Shown: positions 5,346 to 46,670 of the stretch, in pieces
How positions within the stretch are numbered: the first letter of the stretch is position 1
Layout of the letters: every line of letters starts with the position of its first letter
Source of the DNA: Spirochaetota bacterium
GTDB lineage: Bacteria > Spirochaetota > UBA4802 > JAFGDQ01
Reading direction: 5' to 3'
Assembly: GCA_034190085.1 (NCBI GenBank)
Contig: JAXHTS010000026.1
Span: forward strand, 1-47,553
Length of the DNA: 47,553 nt
The notes under the pieces: model-generated
What the model saw: only the letters and a program-made list of their open reading frames with translations
What the model was told of the DNA's origin: nothing
The model's database searches: none
Made by a program: the position numbers and the translations under genes

Positions 5346-5758
5346 TTCTTCCACTCCATATTTTTCCTAAATTATTTGATCACAACCCTTTTACTTATAG
5401 AGAGAAGATAAATTGGAAAAATATAGCTATTATTTTAAACTTCCCCCCTGAAGGACATAAAGGATTATATGTGAATTATTAATTTCTATAATAATTACTC
5501 AATTGCTTGACTCTAACGGATCGATCACGTTAATATAATTAGGTTAACAACTCTGATAAACCCTTATACCCTTATTCTAATATACCTTTTAAATTGCAAG
5601 TGACTTTTTTTATGATCCTTATAAGAGTTTATTTCTCAAAAAAATAATTAAAGAGAATTGTTCATCACCTTTATTTTTAATGTTGCTAACCTATCAATTA
5701 TAATAAAGACGATCCAAGCCTACAAGCTTAAGAGTTCCTGTATTTTAAAGGGATTGAT
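5346..5758. other. Divergent intergenic region
   Basis: About 400 bases lie between the minus-strand hydrolase and the plus-strand DUF3047 gene, so promoters for both should be here. A candidate for the plus strand is listed separately. No ORF, repeat or hairpin of note was seen. Confidence 0.5.
5507..5536 (+). promoter_or_regulatory. Candidate sigma-70-type promoter for the DUF3047 gene
   Basis: TTGACT is followed after 18 bases by TAATAT, which runs into a TATAATT. It is about 220 bases upstream of the start codon, so the leader would be long. This is a sequence match only. Confidence 0.25.
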
Positions 5759-28230: not shown

Positions 28231-29012
28231 TTATAATCTTTTTTCTCTCTTTGCAATCATCCTCTTTATCTTTTGATATGAAGGTGGAGGACCTGTCCTG
28301 ACCTCTTTCGCATCTATGAAAAGTGCATCTGAAATTCCCCATTCTAAAAATACATCTCGATCAGAAGTGTTTATTTCACGAAAGACAACACTATCAGCAA
28401 ATTCTGAAGCAGCCCTCTTTGCTCGCTCAAAAATCATATTTTGAGCAGGACACCAGCCATTAAGGAATGCTGTCACCGTCACCTTCCCTGGAATAGAGTC
28501 AGGCTTCTTTTCGTTTTTTATCCATTTAGGAGCCTCTGCATCTTCAACAAAGGGCTTCCAAAGCAGCACCTGCATCCCTTGCTTATCCACTTTTTCATAT
28601 CCCTGCTTTTTATACCTGAGGACTTCATCCAAAAGGGCAGGGAAATCCCCCAAGCAGCGATTCCCTTTGCACCTTTAGCCTTCACATCACTTTCAGCAGC
28701 CTCAAGTAACGATTTTCCCATCCCTTTTTTCTGAAAATTTCCCCTACCCTTCTTATGCCCATGAACCCAAATGCAATTTATAAAATAAACATCCTTTCCT
28801 AATGCAAATGAATGTTCAATTGGAATATACTGAATCATCCCTCCCACAATTCCATCATCATCAAGAGCAAGCTTCACATCAAGTCCCTTGTCTTTCATAT
28901 TATTATACCAGACCCTCTTGTGGTCACCCGCCTCTTTAATCTCCTCTGACCAATCTTCAAGGCAAACATAATACAAATCCCTATATTCATCAGTAAGATT
29001 GATTATCTTCAT
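28231..29012 (-). pseudogene. GNAT acetyltransferase with YoaP domain, frameshifted
   Basis: Two overlapping minus-strand frames encode one protein. The first (from ATG 29012, behind a strong GGGGGAG site) gives the GNAT domain, ending around AAWGISLPFWMKSS. The second gives GYEKVDKQG, VLLWKPF and a C-terminal YoaP-type domain with FLNGWCPAQN and SDALFI. A single missing base between 28607 and 28617 would join them as FWMKSS...YKKQGYEKV. A run of five T on the plus strand lies in that interval. Without repair the first frame continues as unrelated residues to a stop at 28518. It may be a recent pseudogene, a homopolymer sequencing error, or -1 slippage. Confidence 0.8.
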
Positions 29013-32566: not shown

Positions 32567-33994
32567 ATGATGGTCATAAATAATTTAATAAAAAAGATCA
32601 AGGGCAATAGAAGAATAATCATACCCATACTTTCATTCTTCATCCCATCTGTTTCTGTATTTTTATACTTTAGTTATATCTCTTGGATTAATGAACAACA
32701 ATCTTCAGCAGCGGTTCAAAAGATACTCCCCAGGACTCTTGCCTATATTCAGTTAGAGGAAAATATAATGAAAATGCAGAAAAGCATTTCACTAACTTGT
32801 GCAACCAGGGGTGAGAAGGAAGATGATAATGAATTTTTAAATTCAAAATTATATTATGATAAGGCGCAAAAGGATATATTAAAATTAAAGCAGTTATTTA
32901 TTAACGACCCTCAAAAGCTGAAGAGTTTATTGACCCTTTCTGAATCAATAGATACATATTTTGAGATAGGTATTGAGGTGGCAAAAGCTTATATTGAAGT
33001 TGGAACATCCTATGGGAATGCAATGCTTGAGGTTTTTGCGATCGTTGATGATCAACTGATTTCAAATCTTAGCAGTCAGATCGGGGAGCATACAAGTAAG
33101 ACAATTAGTATTAATTCTTCGATTCAGCAATTGCTGAATAACACAAGGATTTTATTTATTATAATGGGGTTTCTTTTTATAATTTTGAGTATTGTTGTAT
33201 ATTTATTTATGCAGAAGAGGGAGGAACTGCATCAGTCACACATGAAGCTTTCTCAGGCAATGGATTCACTTTGGGGAGAAATGCAGCTTGCGAAGAAGAT
33301 TCAGACAGTGCTTCTGCCAATAAATCCAAAGATAAATGGATTTGAAATTTCAGGAATTATGATACCAGCTGATGATGTTGGAGGTGATTACTTTGATGTG
33401 ATCAATGCTGATGGCGTAAATTGGCTTATTATTGGAGATGTTTCCGGGCATGGGGTTCCAGCAGGGCTTATTATGATGATGGCTCAGACATCTATCCAGA
33501 CAATTCTAAATCAACATCCGAATATATCACCATCAAAATTGTTGACAATTCTAAACAAGGTTTTATCAAAAAATATTAAGAATCTCGGTGAAGAGAAATA
33601 TATGACATTATCTGCATTATCCGCCAATGATAAGGGTGAGGTTACCTTTTCAGGGCTTCATCAGGATATAATGCTCTATAGGGCGGATTGCGACATGGTT
33701 GAACGGATTGAGACAAACGGGATATGGCTTGGAATATTTGATGATATTGATAGAATTAGCAGCGATGAATCCTTTAAGATGAATCATGGTGATATCGTTC
33801 TGCTCTTTACTGATGGGATAACTGAAGCAACCGATGAAAGGGATGTTATGTTTTCTGATGAAAAGTTATTAGAAATATTTAGGAGATTTTGCAACATGGA
33901 TTCTATTGATGCTATTCAGGATGGAATTTTGAAGGAATTGGAATCTTATCATAAGAGTGATGATATTACTTTACTCATGGCTAAACGGATATAG
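32567..33994 (+). CDS. SpoIIE/RsbU-type PP2C phosphatase with extracytoplasmic sensor
   Basis: This is a serine/threonine phosphatase expected to dephosphorylate an anti-sigma factor antagonist (STAS protein) in a partner-switching pathway. TM1 is at about residues 17-36 and TM2 at about 195-215, flanking a helical periplasmic domain of about 155 residues resembling four-helix-bundle sensors. No HAMP domain is visible; a short coiled linker leads to the PP2C domain. Metal-binding residues are present: D269-D270-VGG-D274-YF-D277, GDVSGHG at 290-296, DGITEA and DDITLL near the end. No antagonist or anti-sigma gene is adjacent, so the partner is elsewhere. The MITE-like element ends 80 bases before the ATG. 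Confidence 0.9.
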   Translation: MMVINNLIKKIKGNRRIIIPILSFFIPSVSVFLYFSYISWINEQQSSAAVQKILPRTLAYIQLEENIMKMQKSISLTCATRGEKEDDNEFLNSKLYYDKAQKDILKLKQLFINDPQKLKSLLTLSESIDTYFEIGIEVAKAYIEVGTSYGNAMLEVFAIVDDQLISNLSSQIGEHTSKTISINSSIQQLLNNTRILFIIMGFLFIILSIVVYLFMQKREELHQSHMKLSQAMDSLWGEMQLAKKIQTVLLPINPKINGFEISGIMIPADDVGGDYFDVINADGVNWLIIGDVSGHGVPAGLIMMMAQTSIQTILNQHPNISPSKLLTILNKVLSKNIKNLGEEKYMTLSALSANDKGEVTFSGLHQDIMLYRADCDMVERIETNGIWLGIFDDIDRISSDESFKMNHGDIVLLFTDGITEATDERDVMFSDEKLLEIFRRFCNMDSIDAIQDGILKELESYHKSDDITLLMAKRI

Positions 33995-34054: not shown

Positions 34055-35203
34055 ATGGAGTTTCAATTAACAGAAGAACAACAAATGGTTCGGGATTTGG
34101 CTCGACGGTTTGCTGAGGATCATATTAGACCTGTGGCTGCTGAATTGGACAGGATTCATGCCCACCCTGTGGATATTCTCAGAAAGATGGCGGAGCTTAA
34201 ATTTTTAGGCATAGCTGTTCCAGAGGAGTATGGCGGGGGAGGGATGGATAACGTCTCTTATGTGCTGGTCATGATCGAGATATCAAAGGCCTGTGCTTCC
34301 ACCGGCGTCATCATGAGCGCAAATAATTCCCTCTATTGCTATCCGGTCATGGCTTTTGGCACTAGGGAGCAAAAGGATAAGTACCTCACTCCTGTGGCAG
34401 CAGGCAAATCCTTGGGGTGCTATGCCTTGACCGAGGCCGGGGCTGGATCTGACCCAGCCAGCATGCGCACAACTGCTGTAAGGGATGGTAGGGGTTGGAT
34501 ACTAAACGGCGAGAAGAGGTTTATTACCAATGGTAATGTGGCCGATTATTGTGTTATGGCCGCTGTAACGGAGAAGGATAAAGGTTACAAGGGTATATCT
34601 AGTTTTGTTATAAATCTAAGGGAGACCTCTGGGTTTTCCGTGGGTGTGGTAGAAGAGAAGATGGGTATTCGCGCTAGCGGAACAGCTGAGCTTATCTTCG
34701 AAGATGCTTGGGTTCCTGCTGACGCCCTGCTGGGCAGGGAGGGAGAAGGTTTCAAACAGATGCTGATCACACTGGATGGTGGGCGTATCGGTATCGCCGC
34801 CCAGGCCATAGGGATTGGGCGGGTCGCGCTGGAGGAGTCTCTAATCTATGCAAAGGAGCGGACGCAGTTCGGGCAGTCTATATCTAAATTCCAGGCAATC
34901 CAGTGGAAATTAGCCGACATGGCCATGGAGCTTGATGCAGCGGAACTGTTGACCCTGCGCGCTGCTTATCTTGAGGATAATCATTTACCTTTTGAGAAGG
35001 AAGCGGCTATGGCTAAGTGCTTTGCCTCTGACGCTGCTATGCGAGCAGCAGTTGAAGGTGTTCAGATTCTGGGTGGATATGGTTATATAAACGAGTATCC
35101 CATGGAACGGCATATGCGTGATGCCAAAATTTGTCAGATTTACGAGGGGACGAACGAGATTATGCGTATGATAATTGCGAATAATATTCTGAAGGATAAG
35201 TGA
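34055..35203 (+). CDS. Acyl-CoA dehydrogenase (short-chain type)
   Basis: This FAD enzyme oxidises acyl-CoA to 2-enoyl-CoA, passing electrons to ETF. The three-domain layout is complete in 382 residues: a helical N-terminus, the CYALTEAGAGSDPASM FAD/substrate loop, the RTQFGQSISKFQAIQ block and the YEGTNE motif with the catalytic glutamate E364. It is closest in feel to butyryl-CoA dehydrogenases. GAGGAG precedes the ATG. The gene stands without ETF or other beta-oxidation genes. Its base composition is much nearer balanced than that of the flanking genes, suggesting horizontal transfer. Confidence 0.95.
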   Translation: MEFQLTEEQQMVRDLARRFAEDHIRPVAAELDRIHAHPVDILRKMAELKFLGIAVPEEYGGGGMDNVSYVLVMIEISKACASTGVIMSANNSLYCYPVMAFGTREQKDKYLTPVAAGKSLGCYALTEAGAGSDPASMRTTAVRDGRGWILNGEKRFITNGNVADYCVMAAVTEKDKGYKGISSFVINLRETSGFSVGVVEEKMGIRASGTAELIFEDAWVPADALLGREGEGFKQMLITLDGGRIGIAAQAIGIGRVALEESLIYAKERTQFGQSISKFQAIQWKLADMAMELDAAELLTLRAAYLEDNHLPFEKEAAMAKCFASDAAMRAAVEGVQILGGYGYINEYPMERHMRDAKICQIYEGTNEIMRMIIANNILKDK

Positions 35204-35488: not shown

Positions 35489-35872
35489 ATGATTGCAGAT
35501 CGTAATAACCTGCCAGATGACGCTGAATCAATAATAGATATAATACTTACCCTGATGCAGGAAGACTATCAATCCCACCAATACCACAATCAATATAAAC
35601 CTGTAATTTTCATGAAGATGATCTTCGGTTATTTAAGGACTGGATGTTCAATATGAGATATTAAAAAGATCACAGGGGGAGAGTCATATTGTAACAATCT
35701 TGTAATATTCTTGAGTATGCAAAGTAGCATTGGGATGAGTATACACCAAAGGTATGAGATAAATCACACAAGGCCAAGTATGTTGATGCGAGATAGCTTT
35801 CGGAATATTTCATGAATAGAAATTGAGCATGATTTGCCTGAACAATATAGGAAACAGAACATGATCACATAA
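35489..35872 (+). pseudogene. Remnant of an IS66-type transposase (TnpC N-terminus)
   Basis: One frame, broken by TGA at 35654 and TGA at 35813, reads NNLPDDAESIIDIILTLMQE, then IFGYLRTG, then IEIEHDLPEQYRK. This follows the order seen at the start of IS66 TnpC proteins: an LPDD..L..II..L leader, an RFGR.SEK region and an LPR.EI.HDLPE block. The rest of the transposase is gone. A second scrap of the same block occurs at 38031-38075. The family assignment is by eye and moderately certain. Confidence 0.5.
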
Positions 35873-35893
35873 AGACTTGTATTAGCTTATAAA

Positions 35894-35941
35894 AATCGGA
35901 TTAGGCAACGCTGTGCGTTGCCATGAATCGCGGCTCCGATT
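35894..35941 (+). other. Two-tier stem-loop in the cassette leader, copy 1
   Basis: AATCGGA (35894-35900) pairs with TCCGATT (35935-35941), and inside it GGCAACG pairs with CGTTGCC across a CTGTG loop. In copy 2 the outer stem is unchanged while the inner one is partly lost. It may be an RNA element or a short mobile-DNA end. Confidence 0.5.
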
Positions 35942-35984
35942 AGCACTATGGTTATCAAAGGGGATAATGACAATAAGCAAGAAC

Positions 35985-36013
35985 TTGAGTAATAGAGTAT
36001 AGCGGTTTAATAA
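35985..36013 (+). promoter_or_regulatory. Candidate promoter of porin gene 1, with adjacent dyad
   Basis: TTGAGT and TAATAA are 17 bases apart. Right after lies the perfect palindrome ACAATATTGT (36015-36024), a possible operator. The whole block is identical in unit 2. The -10 match is poor, so this is tentative. Confidence 0.3.
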
Positions 36014-36035
36014 AACAATATTGTCGAATAGATAT

Positions 36036-36060
36036 TACTGCTTAATCGAATTAAGCAGTA
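36036..36060 (+). other. 11-bp perfect hairpin in the porin 1 leader
   Basis: TACTGCTTAAT and ATTAAGCAGTA flank a three-base CGA loop. It lies 46 bases before the start codon and would be in the 5' untranslated region. There is no U-run after it, so an mRNA-stabilising or regulatory role is more likely than termination. Confidence 0.7.
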
Positions 36061-36106
36061 TTAAAGCTGCATAAAGATAATTGATAGTATTTATTGGGAG
36101 GTAACA

Positions 36107-37537
36107 ATGAGAAAGTATATAAATTTAATATGCTGTTTAATGCTATTCATAGGAGGTATTACGCAGGGGCTTAATGCTCAACTCGAAGAAGGGCAACGTT
36201 TTTTTATCTCAGGATTTATGAGTATGAGATATATGCAGACTGAATTCGATTCCCTACATAATTCCTCAGCAGCTGGTTATTCTCCAAATATAAATGAGAA
36301 TGTTTCTTTTTGGCAGAGTAATCTAAATCTTTATTTTACATTCAAACCCACTAGAGATTGGTTTGCCTTTAGTGAAATCAGATTTAATTATGCGCCAACT
36401 GGCGATTATCAACTGATGCCATATGACATGGATGGTGATGGAAATAATGATACATATAGCTTTATCAATTCACTTACCGGACAAACGGAGCCTTTACCCT
36501 TGATATATGCTTTGCCAAACAATACTACACATGTTGACCGATACTTTTTTATGTTTGATTATGGATCAATCTATATTGAACGGGCATATATTGAATGGGA
36601 AAGACTTGCTTATGCTAAGCTTCGAGCAGGAAAGTATATAACTCCCTTTGGCATATTTAGCCAGGATCATGGCGAACCTGCCACTACTTCCATAAGACTT
36701 CCATTAGTAGTTTCCACCTCCCAACCTTATTATGGTATGCCCTTAACACAAACAGGTGTAGAGCTTTATGGTGAATATGGTATTCCCTTGGATATTTTAT
36801 TCGAATATGCTGCTTATGTTGGGAATGGTATATCAACAGGCGATGCTGAATCAGATAGTTTTGATAAGAATAAATCTATTGGCGGATTTATGAATTTTAT
36901 CCTGCATCCAATTGCTGATAACATCTATATTGAATTTGGCGGTTCAGTGTATTATGGGGAAAGATCCCTATTGTTGTACAAGGTTTATAAGACAGTGCCT
37001 GGCATAGCGCCTAATGAGGCAACGGATGATCCAACGGATATTGCTACATATGTTAATTTCTCAAGTGATTCCTCATTAGATAGGTATACAGCAAGGCAAA
37101 TGGAAACCAGTGGCCTAGCCCACCTGAAAATTACAATTCGTTCATTGCCCTTGGATGGGACTTTTGTTCTACAAGCGGAAGGGATATACCAAAAGATAGA
37201 GATGAATAATGATCCTCGTATTGTAGATCCTTTCTCAAAACAGCAGTTAATAATAGAAGACTATTATTATTATGCCTATTATATACAAGGGGAATATCAA
37301 TTCTTCGGAAAGATAACTCCCTATTTTCGATACGAATATTCAGACAGAGACGTAAAAGATCCCCTAAAGCTTATATGGGGAAAAATTATATATTTATATG
37401 TTTTGGGTCTTAATTATAAACCAGACCCTGTGGTTTCCATTAAGGCAGAATGGAATCATATAAAGTCCAATACTCCATTAAGTTATTTCAACAATGATTT
37501 TGATGTATATACAGCATCTGTTTCATTAGCATTTTGA
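36107..37537 (+). CDS. Outer-membrane porin-like beta-barrel protein, copy 1
   Basis: The 476-residue protein has a signal peptide (cleavage likely after LNA at residue 24) and many alternating aromatic strands (e.g. NLNLYFTFKPTRDW, KLRAGKYITPFGIF). It ends in phenylalanine (ASVSLAF) as outer-membrane barrels do. It resembles the barrels often found beside small PstS-like genes, which suggests anion or phosphate passage; that is inference. An EF-hand-like calcium loop, D107-M-D109-G-D111-G-NN-D115, lies in a probable surface loop. The ribosome binding site is GGGAGG. Its stop codon overlaps the ribosome binding site of the next gene. Confidence 0.8.
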   Translation: MRKYINLICCLMLFIGGITQGLNAQLEEGQRFFISGFMSMRYMQTEFDSLHNSSAAGYSPNINENVSFWQSNLNLYFTFKPTRDWFAFSEIRFNYAPTGDYQLMPYDMDGDGNNDTYSFINSLTGQTEPLPLIYALPNNTTHVDRYFFMFDYGSIYIERAYIEWERLAYAKLRAGKYITPFGIFSQDHGEPATTSIRLPLVVSTSQPYYGMPLTQTGVELYGEYGIPLDILFEYAAYVGNGISTGDAESDSFDKNKSIGGFMNFILHPIADNIYIEFGGSVYYGERSLLLYKVYKTVPGIAPNEATDDPTDIATYVNFSSDSSLDRYTARQMETSGLAHLKITIRSLPLDGTFVLQAEGIYQKIEMNNDPRIVDPFSKQQLIIEDYYYYAYYIQGEYQFFGKITPYFRYEYSDRDVKDPLKLIWGKIIYLYVLGLNYKPDPVVSIKAEWNHIKSNTPLSYFNNDFDVYTASVSLAF

Positions 37538-37547
37538 GGAGGAATCA

Positions 37548-37985
37548 ATGAAACCAAAAAGGGCATATTTATATATATTTTTAGTTATATTTTTTATATT
37601 GGATTCTAATAATATTATTTTTAAAGATCTTCCTGCCCAGAACAATGATGTTGTAGTTATAATTAACAAAACCAGGGGCAAGCTATCAAAAATCCAGATT
37701 AAGCGGATTTTTACTGGTAGAATTACACGTTGGCCGAATGGCGGTGGAGATATCAAGATCCTATTAAATAAAGATCCCAAGATTGCTAAGCGTTTCTGCA
37801 AAAAATATCTTAACCTAAAACCGCACGAACTTGATGATATATGGGTAAAGAGGTCCATTCGCACCGGAATTCCAAGGCCGCGTAAGGTTAACAGTGTTGT
37901 AATAACCACTATGGTAGCTAATTCCGATGTCTTTATTGGGGTTGTATCAAAAGCCGAGACAAATACATCAATTAAACAATTATGA
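37548..37985 (+). CDS. Small PstS-like periplasmic binding-domain protein, copy 1
   Basis: The 145-residue exported protein has a hydrophobic signal segment at about 7-20. The body, VVVIINKTRGKLSKIQIKRI, FTGRITRWPNGGGDIKIL and KPHELDDIWVKR, matches the short PstS-like family of phosphate ABC transporter substrate-binding-type proteins that are found next to porins without an ABC transporter. The early I-F-x-G-x-I-x-x-W-P-N-G run is the key signature. The usual C-terminal strand (..AIGYV) is altered to VFIGVV. GAGGAGG lies just before the ATG and overlaps the porin stop codon, so translation is probably coupled. No Pst permease or ATPase genes are in the window. Confidence 0.82.
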   Translation: MKPKRAYLYIFLVIFFILDSNNIIFKDLPAQNNDVVVIINKTRGKLSKIQIKRIFTGRITRWPNGGGDIKILLNKDPKIAKRFCKKYLNLKPHELDDIWVKRSIRTGIPRPRKVNSVVITTMVANSDVFIGVVSKAETNTSIKQL

Positions 37986-38030
37986 TTGTATAGTAAACGA
38001 TAATGAGATGGGAGGCCTCAATAATAATGC

Positions 38031-38075
38031 ACCCTTTCACGAATGGAGATCGAACACGACATACCGGAATTTTAA
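38031..38075 (+). pseudogene. Second scrap of IS66-type transposase
   Basis: A 15-codon frame reads LSRMEIEHDIPEF before a stop. It lines up with IEIEHDLPEQ at 35816-35845 and with the LPR.EI.HDLPE block of IS66 TnpC. It sits at the junction of the two cassette units. Confidence 0.45.
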
Positions 38076-38121
38076 AGAAGAAGATAAATGAGATCATATG
38101 AAGACCTGCATTGGCTTGAAA

Positions 38122-38169
38122 AATCGGATTAGGCGACGCTGTGGATTGCCAAGAATCGCGGCTCCGATT
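38122..38169 (+). other. Stem-loop in the cassette leader, copy 2
   Basis: The outer stem AATCGGA/TCCGATT is kept. The inner stem GGCGACG/GATTGCC has one wobble and two mismatches compared with copy 1. Confidence 0.45.
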
Positions 38170-38212
38170 AGCACTGTAGTTATCAAAGGGGGTGATGACA
38201 ATAAGCAAGAAC

Positions 38213-38241
38213 TTGAGTAATAGAGTATAGCGGTTTAATAA
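38213..38241 (+). promoter_or_regulatory. Candidate promoter of porin gene 2
   Basis: This has the same TTGAGT-N17-TAATAA arrangement as in unit 1, with the same ACAATATTGT palindrome after it. Confidence 0.3.
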
Positions 38242-38263
38242 AACAATATTGTCGAATAGATAT

Positions 38264-38288
38264 TACTGCTTAATCGAATTAAGCAGTA
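38264..38288 (+). other. 11-bp perfect hairpin in the porin 2 leader
   Basis: It is identical to the hairpin at 36036-36060 in stem, loop and flanks, and lies 47 bases before the porin 2 start codon. Confidence 0.7.
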
Positions 38289-38335
38289 TTAAAGCTGCAT
38301 AAAGATAATTGATAGTATTTACTTGGGAGGTAAAA

Positions 38336-39766
38336 ATGAGAAAGTATATAAATTTAATATGCTGCTTAATGCTATTCATAGGAGGTGTTACCCAGGGGCT
38401 TAATGCACAACTTCTTGAAGAAGAGCAACGTCTTTTTATTTCAGGATTTATGAGTATGAGATATATGCAGACTGAATTCGATTCCTTTGATAATTCCTCA
38501 GCAGCTGCTTATTCTCCAAATATAAATGAGAATGTTTCCTTTTGGCAGAGTAATCTAAATCTTTATTTTACATTCAAACCCACTAGAGATTGGTCGGCAT
38601 TTTCTGAAATCAGATTTAATTATGCGCCAACTGGAGATTATCAACTGACACCATATGATATGGATGGTGATGGAAGTAATGATACATATAGCTTTAACAA
38701 TCCACTTACCGGGCAAACGGAGCCCTTACCCTTGATATATGCTATGCCAAACAATACTACGCATGTTGACCGATACTTTTTTATGTTTGACTATGGATCA
38801 ATCTATATTGAACGGGCATATATTGAATGGAAAAGACTTGCTTATGCTAAGCTTCGAGCAGGAAAGTATATAACTCCCTATGGCATATTTAGCCAGGATC
38901 ATGGTGAACCTGCTACTACTTCCATAAGGCTTCCATTAGTGGTTTCCCCACCTGGTAATTATGGCATGCCCCAAACACAAACAGGTGTAGAGCTTTATGG
39001 TGAATATGGTATTCCCTTGGATATTTTATTCGAATATGCTGCTTATGTTGGGAATGGTATATCAACAGGCGATGCTGAATCAGATAGTTTTGATAAGAAT
39101 AAATCTGTTGGCGGATTTATGAATTTTATCCTGCATCCAATTGCTGATAACATCTATATTGAATTTGGTGGTTCAGTGTATTATGGGGAAAGATCCCTAT
39201 TGTTGTACAAGGTTTATAAGACAGTGCCTGGTATAGCGCCTAATGAGGCAACGGATGATCCAACGGATATTACTACATATGTTAATTTCTCAAGTGATTC
39301 CTCATTAGATAGGTATACAGCAAGGCAAATGGAAACCAGTGGTTTAGGCCACCTGAAAATTACAATTCGTTCATTGCCCTTAGATGGAACATTTGTTCTG
39401 CAAACGGAAGGATTATATCAAGAGATAGATATGAATAATGATCCTCGTATTGTAGATCCCGTATCAAAACAGCAATTGACAATAGAAGATTATAATTATT
39501 ATACCTACTATATCCAAGGCGAATATCAATTCTTCGGAAAGATAACACCATATTTTCGATACGAATATTCATATAAAGACATTAAAGATCCTCTAAAACT
39601 TACAGTTTCGAAAAGTATAAATTTGCAGGTTGTGGGTCTTAATTTTAAACCTGATCCGGTGGTTTCCATTAAGGCGGAATGGAATCATGTTAATCTGCAT
39701 ATTCCCTTAAGTTATATCAACAATGATTTTGATGTATATACAGGATCTGTTTCATTAGCATTTTGA
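38336..39766 (+). CDS. Outer-membrane porin-like beta-barrel protein, copy 2
   Basis: This is a 476-residue paralogue of the porin at 36107. The start at 38336 is chosen because GGGAGG precedes it and it matches copy 1; the frame is open nine codons further up. By eye about one residue in ten differs. Changes cluster in the mature N-terminus, a loop around residue 205, and the last 100 residues, while residues of about 215-325 are almost unchanged. The calcium-type loop DMDGDGSND and the terminal phenylalanine are kept. The surface-exposed changes suggest altered specificity or antigenicity. Confidence 0.8.
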   Translation: MRKYINLICCLMLFIGGVTQGLNAQLLEEEQRLFISGFMSMRYMQTEFDSFDNSSAAAYSPNINENVSFWQSNLNLYFTFKPTRDWSAFSEIRFNYAPTGDYQLTPYDMDGDGSNDTYSFNNPLTGQTEPLPLIYAMPNNTTHVDRYFFMFDYGSIYIERAYIEWKRLAYAKLRAGKYITPYGIFSQDHGEPATTSIRLPLVVSPPGNYGMPQTQTGVELYGEYGIPLDILFEYAAYVGNGISTGDAESDSFDKNKSVGGFMNFILHPIADNIYIEFGGSVYYGERSLLLYKVYKTVPGIAPNEATDDPTDITTYVNFSSDSSLDRYTARQMETSGLGHLKITIRSLPLDGTFVLQTEGLYQEIDMNNDPRIVDPVSKQQLTIEDYNYYTYYIQGEYQFFGKITPYFRYEYSYKDIKDPLKLTVSKSINLQVVGLNFKPDPVVSIKAEWNHVNLHIPLSYINNDFDVYTGSVSLAF

Positions 39767-39776
39767 GGAGGAATCA

Positions 39777-40214
39777 ATGAAACCAAAAAGGGCATATTTA
39801 TATATATTTTTAGTTATATTTTTTATATTGGATTCTAATAATATTATTTTTAAAGATCTTCCTGCCCAGAACAATGATGTTGTAGTTATAATTAACAAAA
39901 CCAGGGGCAAGCTATCAAAAATCCAGATTAAGCGGATTTTTACTGGTAGAATTACACGTTGGCCGAATGGCGGTGGAGATATCAAGATCCTATTAAATAA
40001 AGATCCCAAGATTGCTAAGCGTTTCTGCAAAAAATATCTTAACCTAAAACCGTACGAACTTGACGATATATGGGTAAAGAGGTCCATTCGCACCGGAATT
40101 CCAAGGCCGCGTAAGGTTAACAGTGTTGTAATAACCACTATGGTAACTAATTCCGATGTCTTTATCGGAGTTGTATTAAAAGCCGAGACAAATACATCAA
40201 TTAAACAATTATGA
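39777..40214 (+). CDS. Small PstS-like periplasmic binding-domain protein, copy 2
   Basis: This 145-residue protein differs from copy 1 at only three residues (H to Y in KPHELDD, A to T in VANSD, S to L in VVSKAE). At the DNA level I count about six changes in 438 bases, including silent ones. It has the same signal segment, FTGRITRWPNG signature and coupled ribosome binding site. The near-identity is stronger than between the porins and suggests recent homogenisation. Confidence 0.82.
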   Translation: MKPKRAYLYIFLVIFFILDSNNIIFKDLPAQNNDVVVIINKTRGKLSKIQIKRIFTGRITRWPNGGGDIKILLNKDPKIAKRFCKKYLNLKPYELDDIWVKRSIRTGIPRPRKVNSVVITTMVTNSDVFIGVVLKAETNTSIKQL

Positions 40215-40351
40215 TTCTAAGGTATACTATAATGAGATGAGAGGATCAATAGTGCTGGTTGGTTGGGAATGAACGTTATAAGGCTTGTGTATTGATTTAA
40301 ACATTGGCTTTCTTGCGGTGTATATGAGAATTGTATGTGTCCTTAGAAACG

Positions 40352-45028: not shown

Positions 45029-45742
45029 CTATCTCCTTTCCTCTAATATTTGAATTGTTCCAATTATTCCTATAACTGTCACTGAAAGGAAGTATATAAT
45101 GTCTCTAAAATCTATGATCCCCCTTGATATATTCCTAAAATGGTAATCTGCTCCCAGATACTCCACAAAATTCAGTATTGTTGGAGGAAGAAAAAAAAGA
45201 AATTTATCTATCAATGTGAGAGTTAGGCAGATTGATAAACAGATCATAAAGGCTACAATCTGATTTCTGGTTAGAGATGAGGCTAAAACCCCAATCGACG
45301 AGAATGCAGCGCCAAGAAGCACTGCGCCTACATATCCTCCCACAACGGGGCCATAATCGAGTGAGCCAGCAAAGGAAATTGTAATCACGTATGCAATCGT
45401 TGGGAGTAGCATCACAGTGACAAAAAGACTACTAGCAAGAAATTTTCCCATCACTACATCAAAGGTGCTCACAGGGAGGGTCATGAGTATCTCAAAGGAG
45501 CCCGTATGCTCTTCCTCTGAGAATAGACGCATAGTTACTGCTGGTATAACAAAGGAGAATATTATTGGAAGAAGCTTGAAAAATCCTCTAAGTTCAGCCT
45601 GCATATATAGAAAGAAGGTGGAGAAGAAGAACCATCCAGTGACGACTAAAAAAACAGTAATAACTATATAGGCAATTGGTGTTGTATAATAACTTGCCAG
45701 TTCTTTCTTCATAATAATAATGGATTTCCTGAGTCTATTCAT
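45029..45742 (-). CDS. GldF-like ABC transporter permease
   Basis: The 237-residue membrane protein has six predicted transmembrane segments. The opening KKELASYYTTPIAYIVITVFLV and the MRLFSEEEHTGSFEILMTLP motif are standard in the ABC-2/GldF permease family. The ATG overlaps the ATPase stop codon by eight bases, behind GAGGAGGAG, so the two are translationally coupled. Confidence 0.93.
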   Translation of the reverse strand: MNRLRKSIIIMKKELASYYTTPIAYIVITVFLVVTGWFFFSTFFLYMQAELRGFFKLLPIIFSFVIPAVTMRLFSEEEHTGSFEILMTLPVSTFDVVMGKFLASSLFVTVMLLPTIAYVITISFAGSLDYGPVVGGYVGAVLLGAAFSSIGVLASSLTRNQIVAFMICLSICLTLTLIDKFLFFLPPTILNFVEYLGADYHFRNISRGIIDFRDIIYFLSVTVIGIIGTIQILEERR

Positions 45743-46670
45743 TATCTCCTCCTCTCGTCAATTCTCTAAAAACATTTTCAAGAGTCCGATGCTCCTTCAA
45801 CATTTCAAAGAGTATCCACCCTCTTTCACTTATCAGCTTAAATATATCCGCTCTAGCGTCTTTATCAGAAGATGATATTACTGTAGCAGAGGTCAGCCCT
45901 TCTTCGTCGTGCTTTTCCTTTATGCTATTTATCCCATCTATTTTTTTGACTTCTTCAGAAAGGGTATTAAAGTTTACTCCACTGACCTTTATGGAAAGCT
46001 TCACATCCTTGCCTACACCTGATTTTAACTCAGAGGTTCTAGCGTCTGCCACAATGTGACCGCTATCAATTATTATTACCCTGTCACAGGTAGCTTCAAC
46101 CTCTGATAATATATGTGTTGAGAGAATTACCGTCTTTTTCTGCCCAATCCTTTTGATAAGATTTCGTATCTCAATTATCTGGTTGGGATCAAGCCCGCTT
46201 GTGGGCTCATCCAGTATTAGTATCTCTGGATCATGAATCATGGCATGAGCAAGTCCTACCCTCTGCTTATACCCCTTGGATAGTGCACCGATGTTTTTAT
46301 GCATGACATCATTCAGCCCACAGAGATTAGCTATCTCCTTAATCCTGGTTTGATCCACTATGCTTCTGATTTCACCAACAAACTGAAGATAATCATAAAC
46401 TACCATTTCACTATATAGTGGGGCAGTTTCAGGAAGATAACCAATCAGTTTTTTTACCTCCAGTGGATTTTCATCTACGAGATAATCGCCAATGTTTATC
46501 CTCCCTGAAGTTGGATTTAGATAACATGTTAGCATCCTTAGGGTTGTTGTCTTCCCAGCGCCATTTGGCCCCAGAAGCCCAGTAATCTCACCTTCCCTTA
46601 TGGAAAAGGAGATATTGTCTACCGCTAAAAAATCTCCATAATACTTTGTTAAACCGCTTACGTTTATCAT
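45735..46670 (-). CDS. GldA-like ABC transporter ATPase
   Basis: This is the 311-residue nucleotide-binding subunit of the exporter. Walker A GPNGAGKT is at 34-41, the signature LSKGYKQR at 130-137, Walker B LILDEP at 151-156 and the H-loop histidine at 186. A C-terminal regulatory region (about 215-305) is typical of the GldA/NatA branch. AGGAGG lies nine bases before the ATG. It heads a four-gene operon. Confidence 0.95.
   Translation of the reverse strand: MINVSGLTKYYGDFLAVDNISFSIREGEITGLLGPNGAGKTTTLRMLTCYLNPTSGRINIGDYLVDENPLEVKKLIGYLPETAPLYSEMVVYDYLQFVGEIRSIVDQTRIKEIANLCGLNDVMHKNIGALSKGYKQRVGLAHAMIHDPEILILDEPTSGLDPNQIIEIRNLIKRIGQKKTVILSTHILSEVEATCDRVIIIDSGHIVADARTSELKSGVGKDVKLSIKVSGVNFNTLSEEVKKIDGINSIKEKHDEEGLTSATVISSSDKDARADIFKLISERGWILFEMLKEHRTLENVFRELTRGGDNE

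Follow-up and report, generated by a model that had tools for sequence, protein, structure and literature searches.

A duplicated outer-membrane barrel and single-lobe PstS relative as the probable front end of a module for transmembrane signalling in a Spirochaetota bacterium

Chemoreceptors, kinases and cyclic-di-GMP enzymes are stimulated by substrate-binding proteins (SBPs), a mechanism that is established as widespread and general (PMC9602780). Binding of PstS activates the chemoreceptor CtpL in the phosphate chemotaxis of Pseudomonas aeruginosa (PMC4926252), which is the nearest experimental precedent for the module considered here. The binding proteins known to stimulate receptors are complete and two-lobed, and are usually shared with transporters. 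No published description of a triad of outer-membrane barrel, short PstS-like protein and transducer was found in the literature that we searched, in which few subscription journals were covered.

We analysed a stretch of 47,553 nucleotides from a Spirochaetota bacterium, hereafter the window. It carries two direct repeats arranged head-to-tail with a spacing of ~2,229 bp, and each unit of 2.23 kb encodes an outer-membrane barrel of 476 amino acids followed by a secreted protein of 145 amino acids, here called sPBP. The features discussed below are as follows.

32567..33994, + strand: SpoIIE-type PP2C phosphatase (Pfam SpoIIE, 1.8e-34)
35880..36106, + strand: leader of unit 1, 95% identical to the leader of unit 2, with a palindrome at 36033-36063
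36107..37537, + strand: barrel 1, ORF of 476 aa with signal peptide and C-terminal Phe (Pfam Porin_O_P, 25.2 bits)
37548..37985, + strand: sPBP 1, 145 aa, secreted and predicted single-lobe PstS relative (PF12849, 25 bits)
38110..38335, + strand: leader of unit 2, duplicate of the unit 1 leader, with a palindrome at 38261-38291
38336..39766, + strand: barrel 2, ORF of 476 aa from the ATG (Pfam Porin_O_P, 27.2 bits)
39777..40214, + strand: sPBP 2, 145 aa, 98% identical to sPBP 1

The ORFs and the direct repeats confirmed the tandem duplication proposed in an earlier note on this DNA. The translational coupling that it had proposed also held, as the same overlap of stop codon and ribosome-binding site is found at both junctions: the sequence TTTTGAGGAGGAATCAATG is identical in the two units, and the barrel stop sits inside the ribosome-binding site of sPBP, 10 nt ahead of its ATG. 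The barrel 2 ORF can be extended by an in-frame TTG at 38309. Among the neighbouring genes of the window we found no ABC permease or ATPase gene beside the pair, as the note had stated, and the ABC-2-type genes at 45029-46670 are part of an unrelated minus-strand cluster. The suggestion that the units represent two variants applies to the barrels, which share 90% protein identity (dN 0.055, dS 0.21), but not to the near-identical sPBPs (98% protein identity, dN 0.009, dS 0.03), which differ by three synonymous and three non-synonymous codon changes. Elsewhere in the window, the overlapping minus-strand ORFs 28231-28653 and 28518-29012 resemble a single frameshift-split gene of acetyltransferase type (28231-29012).

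The leaders had been described as conserved and structured. Conservation is evident between the two units, where the leaders form part of the duplicated DNA, but structure found little support. The z-scores for folding against shuffled sequence were modest (-2.24 for unit 1 and -1.76 for unit 2), no Rfam family matched the leader at the gathering score or at E<=1, and no third copy was present in the rest of the 4.27-Mb genome. For these reasons we do not treat the leader as evidence for a regulatory RNA, and a riboswitch was rejected on the same grounds. A mobile element was also rejected, since a search of this one genome gave no further copies. The sole obvious element in each leader is the palindrome, with arms of 11 bp, which may act as an operator or form a hairpin.

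Pfam PF12849 (PBP_like_2) matched sPBP at profile positions 87-185 of 267 only, with scores for the two window proteins (25.0 and 23.9 bits) under the 27-bit cut-off, and the PstS model TIGR02136 gave 15.4 bits where its cut-off is 206.6. The profile built from 23 diverse sPBP relatives matched PstS chains of known structure in their central lobe (4q8r, 5e-11; 1twy residues 99-217, 1.5e-9), and Foldseek aligned the AlphaFold model of sPBP (pLDDT 80.8) to about half of PstS structures with a target TM of 0.31-0.37. The SGT motif was found in none of the 23 short relatives, compared with 24 of 26 full-length PstS-like ORFs of Spirochaetota, where it follows IFxG..W and lies about six residues ahead of a conserved Phe in the alignments. 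SGT contacts phosphate in PstS structures. The relation to the PstS fold, on which the earlier note had rested its proposal, is therefore upheld by the profile match and by Foldseek, but it extends to the central lobe only and the SGT is missing. Profile and model together indicate that sPBP is the central PstS lobe alone. Because this lobe stands by itself without the SGT, a complete Venus-flytrap cleft is predicted to be absent and binding of phosphate is doubtful, making it unlikely that sPBP serves as a phosphate-binding protein. The current annotation, ‘phosphate ABC transporter substrate-binding protein’, would thus be a misannotation that hides its role.

The barrels scored above the gathering threshold of 20.9 bits for Porin_O_P (OprO/OprP-like), although the match spans only ~45 of 370 profile positions. 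Other barrels of the system were assigned to Porin_4 or to no family. Comparison of the barrel profile with the PDB gave no credible match, and structure prediction gave no usable model (pLDDT 28).

The short form was present in 5 of 393 sampled Spirochaetota genomes, the remaining matches to the broad profile all being full-length PstS. Outside this phylum the loci were drawn only from plasmid and chromid records, where tblastn detected the short form in Pseudoalteromonas, Alteromonas, Saccharobesus, Pseudomonas, Massilia, Ideonella, Caballeronia, Comamonadaceae, Photobacterium, Vibrio, Halomonas and Persicobacter. Scanning 84,980 species genomes with a nine-member alignment returned no more than two loci, neither of them new, as the degenerate pattern is specific to near relatives. 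A phage origin of the pair was considered and rejected, as no phage match for sPBP was found. In Pseudoalteromonas xiamenensis (NZ_CP099918.1), short PstS-like proteins occur in three places, and the two that were examined are both sPBP-barrel pairs.

We examined the neighbourhoods of 28 sPBP loci from Spirochaetota, Gamma- and Betaproteobacteria and Bacteroidota; the tally was made by hand and contains the near-identical pairs L049/L051 and L050/L052, so that not all loci are independent. A barrel adjoins sPBP firmly in 24 loci and probably in two more, and pstC, pstA and pstB were found at none of the 28. The pairing without pstCAB that the earlier note had singled out for checking in other genomes thus recurs, and it does so across three phyla. 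Of the 27 loci whose flanks could be read, 18 have a transmembrane transducer directly beside the barrel-sPBP cluster and 21 have one with at most a single gene in between. Two unrelated stretches of the plasmids concerned contained 2 transducers among 82 genes, which gives a rough background; as the transducer classes were picked post hoc, significance is somewhat overstated. These transducers are chemoreceptors (MCPs), GGDEF/EAL proteins, hybrid histidine kinases (HisKA-REC), a GAF-domain protein and SpoIIE-type phosphatases.

The order barrel-sPBP-MCP or MCP-barrel-sPBP was seen in Pseudoalteromonas (twice), Massilia, Pseudomonas (twice) and Ideonella, and barrel-sPBP-GGDEF/EAL in Caballeronia (twice), Halomonas and probably Comamonadaceae. 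A hybrid histidine kinase accompanies sPBP-barrel in Photobacterium and Vibrio, and a GAF membrane protein follows the pair in Persicobacter. Genome G181 has the order barrel-sPBP-barrel-sPBP-MCP, and in G111 sPBP-barrel is followed by the contig end. In the relatives G031 and G034 a divergent SpoIIE phosphatase flanks the pair on one side, and the opposite flank carries a SiaC-like gene in G031 and a histidine kinase in G034. The periplasmic domains of the neighbouring transducers vary, including 4HB, dCache_1, dCache_3, a type shared by SpoIIE phosphatases and the C55 chemoreceptor described below, and others that were unassigned. One sPBP near an MCP has no barrel beside it, some barrel-sPBP pairs stand alone, and no transducer occurs within one gene at five loci (L048, L049, L051, L060 and L061). 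At L049 and L051, on Alteromonas plasmids, barrel-sPBP has a type IV CRISPR (csf) locus as its immediate neighbour.

The genome to which the window belongs encodes seven copies of sPBP at four loci, namely the window, C55, C71 and C35. At C55 the barrel-sPBP pair occurs three times, followed by a fourth barrel and an MCP, and at C71 the order is barrel-barrel-sPBP-MCP-CheW-CheA-CheW. At C35 barrel-sPBP is followed by a PilZ/slr1658-like gene and then by a SiaC/slr1659-like gene. Three of the four loci are within ~2.2 kb of one of the 21 MCP/SpoIIE genes of the genome; a simple estimate puts the chance of this at P ~1e-4, somewhat overstating the significance as the classes were picked post hoc. 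The first barrel at C55 has an in-frame TAG soon after the predicted signal peptide (~5600-5690, with an ORF from 5682), which would mark a pseudogene or an assembly error. The genes at C35 (7846-9170), in line with barrel-sPBP, encode PilZ fused to a slr1658/DUF6272-like ATPase and then a slr1659/SiaC-like protein, resembling a partner-switch pair with an unusual PilZ fusion. The slr1658-, slr1659- and SiaC-like genes at C35 and beside sPBP in G031 all scored below cut-off.

In the window, two membrane segments are predicted in the SpoIIE-type phosphatase, which carries a periplasmic sensor domain and is separated from the barrel-sPBP array by an acyl-CoA dehydrogenase gene (34055-35203). It shares 46-47% identity over its full length with the phosphatases that directly flank the pairs in G031 and G034, which on this similarity are its orthologues, and its sensor domain is of the same type as that of the C55 chemoreceptor beside the triple array. 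We consider this phosphatase the likeliest candidate transducer in the window. Its score against the SiaA equivalog model was 51.1 against 700 bits, over the C-terminal part only.

We compared the copies within three independent tandem arrays. Identity of mature sPBPs and of barrels was, respectively, 97% and 90% in the window, 95-97% and 71-83% at C55, and 97% and 57% in G181. In the C55 and G181 arrays the dN of sPBP is 0.01-0.03 at a dS of 0.44-0.62 (dN/dS ~0.02-0.06), and sPBP is therefore under strong purifying selection. The dS of sPBP is lower than that of the barrels in the window and in G181, which suggests that gene conversion contributes partly to its uniformity. Uniform sPBPs alongside varying barrels would be expected of copies that share one downstream partner.

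Taken together, these results suggest, with a probability of roughly two in three, that the barrel and half-SBP serve, here in duplicate, as the front end of a module for transmembrane signalling rather than as a stand-alone system for anion uptake. The barrel would admit or recognise an external compound, and sPBP would serve in the periplasm as an adaptor, making contact with the sensor domain of a transducer in the inner membrane. In the window this transducer would be the SpoIIE phosphatase, with a dephosphorylated regulator of the anti-sigma-antagonist type as output; the slr1658/slr1659-like pair at C35 is a candidate target, by a putative link between the two loci. Elsewhere an MCP, a GGDEF/EAL protein or a hybrid kinase would take this place. 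Several barrels may share one transducer, since the adaptor is near-constant while the barrels diversify. The sequences support the gene architecture and its recurrence across phyla, the secretion signals, the single-lobe fold without SGT, and the pattern of a constant adaptor beside variable barrels; we infer the contact between sPBP and transducer, the direction of the signal and the function of the barrel. The variety of output domains among the transducers is as expected of an interchangeable input module. Counting against the module are the varied sensor domains, with no single obvious docking domain, the dehydrogenase gene between phosphatase and pair in the window, the five loci without a transducer and the possible gene conversion. 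More tentatively, and with odds that we put well below even, the barrel itself may be the receptor, with the cleft-less, half-size sPBP relaying the state of the barrel to the co-encoded transducer. If so, a single transducer could respond to several external cues through arrays of diversified barrels that share a near-invariant adaptor.

A role of sPBP mainly as a partner of the barrel, be it a plug, a gate or a factor for assembly or quality control, with transducers nearby as such barrels matter for sensing generally, would account for the tight translational coupling, for the pairs that stand alone and for an adjacency to barrels (24-26 of 28) that is steadier than adjacency to any one type of transducer. 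However, sPBP is near-constant beside barrels that fall to 57% identity, which argues for a shared partner beyond the variable barrel parts, and the sPBP near an MCP adjoins no barrel; we regard this role as improbable.

We think it less probable still that the pair captures a phosphate-like anion and passes it across the outer membrane to feed general metabolism, as the earlier note had proposed. The weak Porin_O_P match above the gathering score, the derivation of sPBP from the PstS fold and the conservation of the pair without a transporter would agree with such uptake, but sPBP has a single lobe and no SGT, the neighbours are signalling genes, and no inner-membrane transporter is there to take the solute. 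In addition, a canonical pst locus is found elsewhere in this genome, on C18, with genes for PstS, PstB, PhoU, PhoB-like, PhoR-like and PstA-like proteins, named from their sequences. Because of this locus, and because sPBP is an unlikely phosphate binder, anion uptake is not the best reading of the pair. The commonness of tandem duplication and the scores of sPBP under family cut-offs might suggest that an ordinary porin and a degenerate PstS fragment, without any function in common, were duplicated by chance. This is very improbable and already contradicted, because the same pair is conserved across three phyla and in three independent arrays, under purifying selection at C55 and in G181.

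If the signalling module is as proposed, a barrel and half a binding protein would constitute a general sensory input module, coupled to five types of signalling output and present in three phyla or more; the cluster is present in cultivable relatives of Pseudoalteromonas, Pseudomonas and Caballeronia. As in SBP-stimulated receptors, a gene of the SBP fold is encoded with a transmembrane receptor, at the 21 loci with at most one intervening gene; the complete ligand-binding SBP of those systems is here a single lobe.

The SiaABC and Slr1658-Slr1659 partner switches (PMC7647112) likewise have a membrane SpoIIE phosphatase, and C35 has slr1658- and slr1659/SiaC-like genes after sPBP. They differ in that the window phosphatase falls far short of the SiaA score and that no SiaB/SiaC partner genes (kinase, antagonist) are found in the window. 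Chitin sensing in Vibrio similarly combines an outer-membrane chitoporin, a chitin-oligosaccharide-binding protein (CBP) and the hybrid kinase ChiS. ChiS is coupled to CBP, a full-length binding protein that, unlike sPBP, is unrelated to PstS and also serves transport. NspS is a two-lobed SBP. Polyamine signalling by NspS-MbaA resembles the present system in having a dedicated periplasmic binding protein and a GGDEF-EAL receptor, but the binding protein is full-length and no barrel partner is reported in the part of the source consulted (PMC8967002). In the CtpL-PstS system, a PstS-fold periplasmic protein signals to a membrane chemoreceptor that does not itself bind the ligand (PMC4926252), which is the role proposed here for sPBP. 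There, however, the signalling protein is the full two-lobed PstS of the Pst transporter, whereas sPBP has one lobe, no SGT and no adjoining transporter genes, and is encoded together with a barrel of its own.
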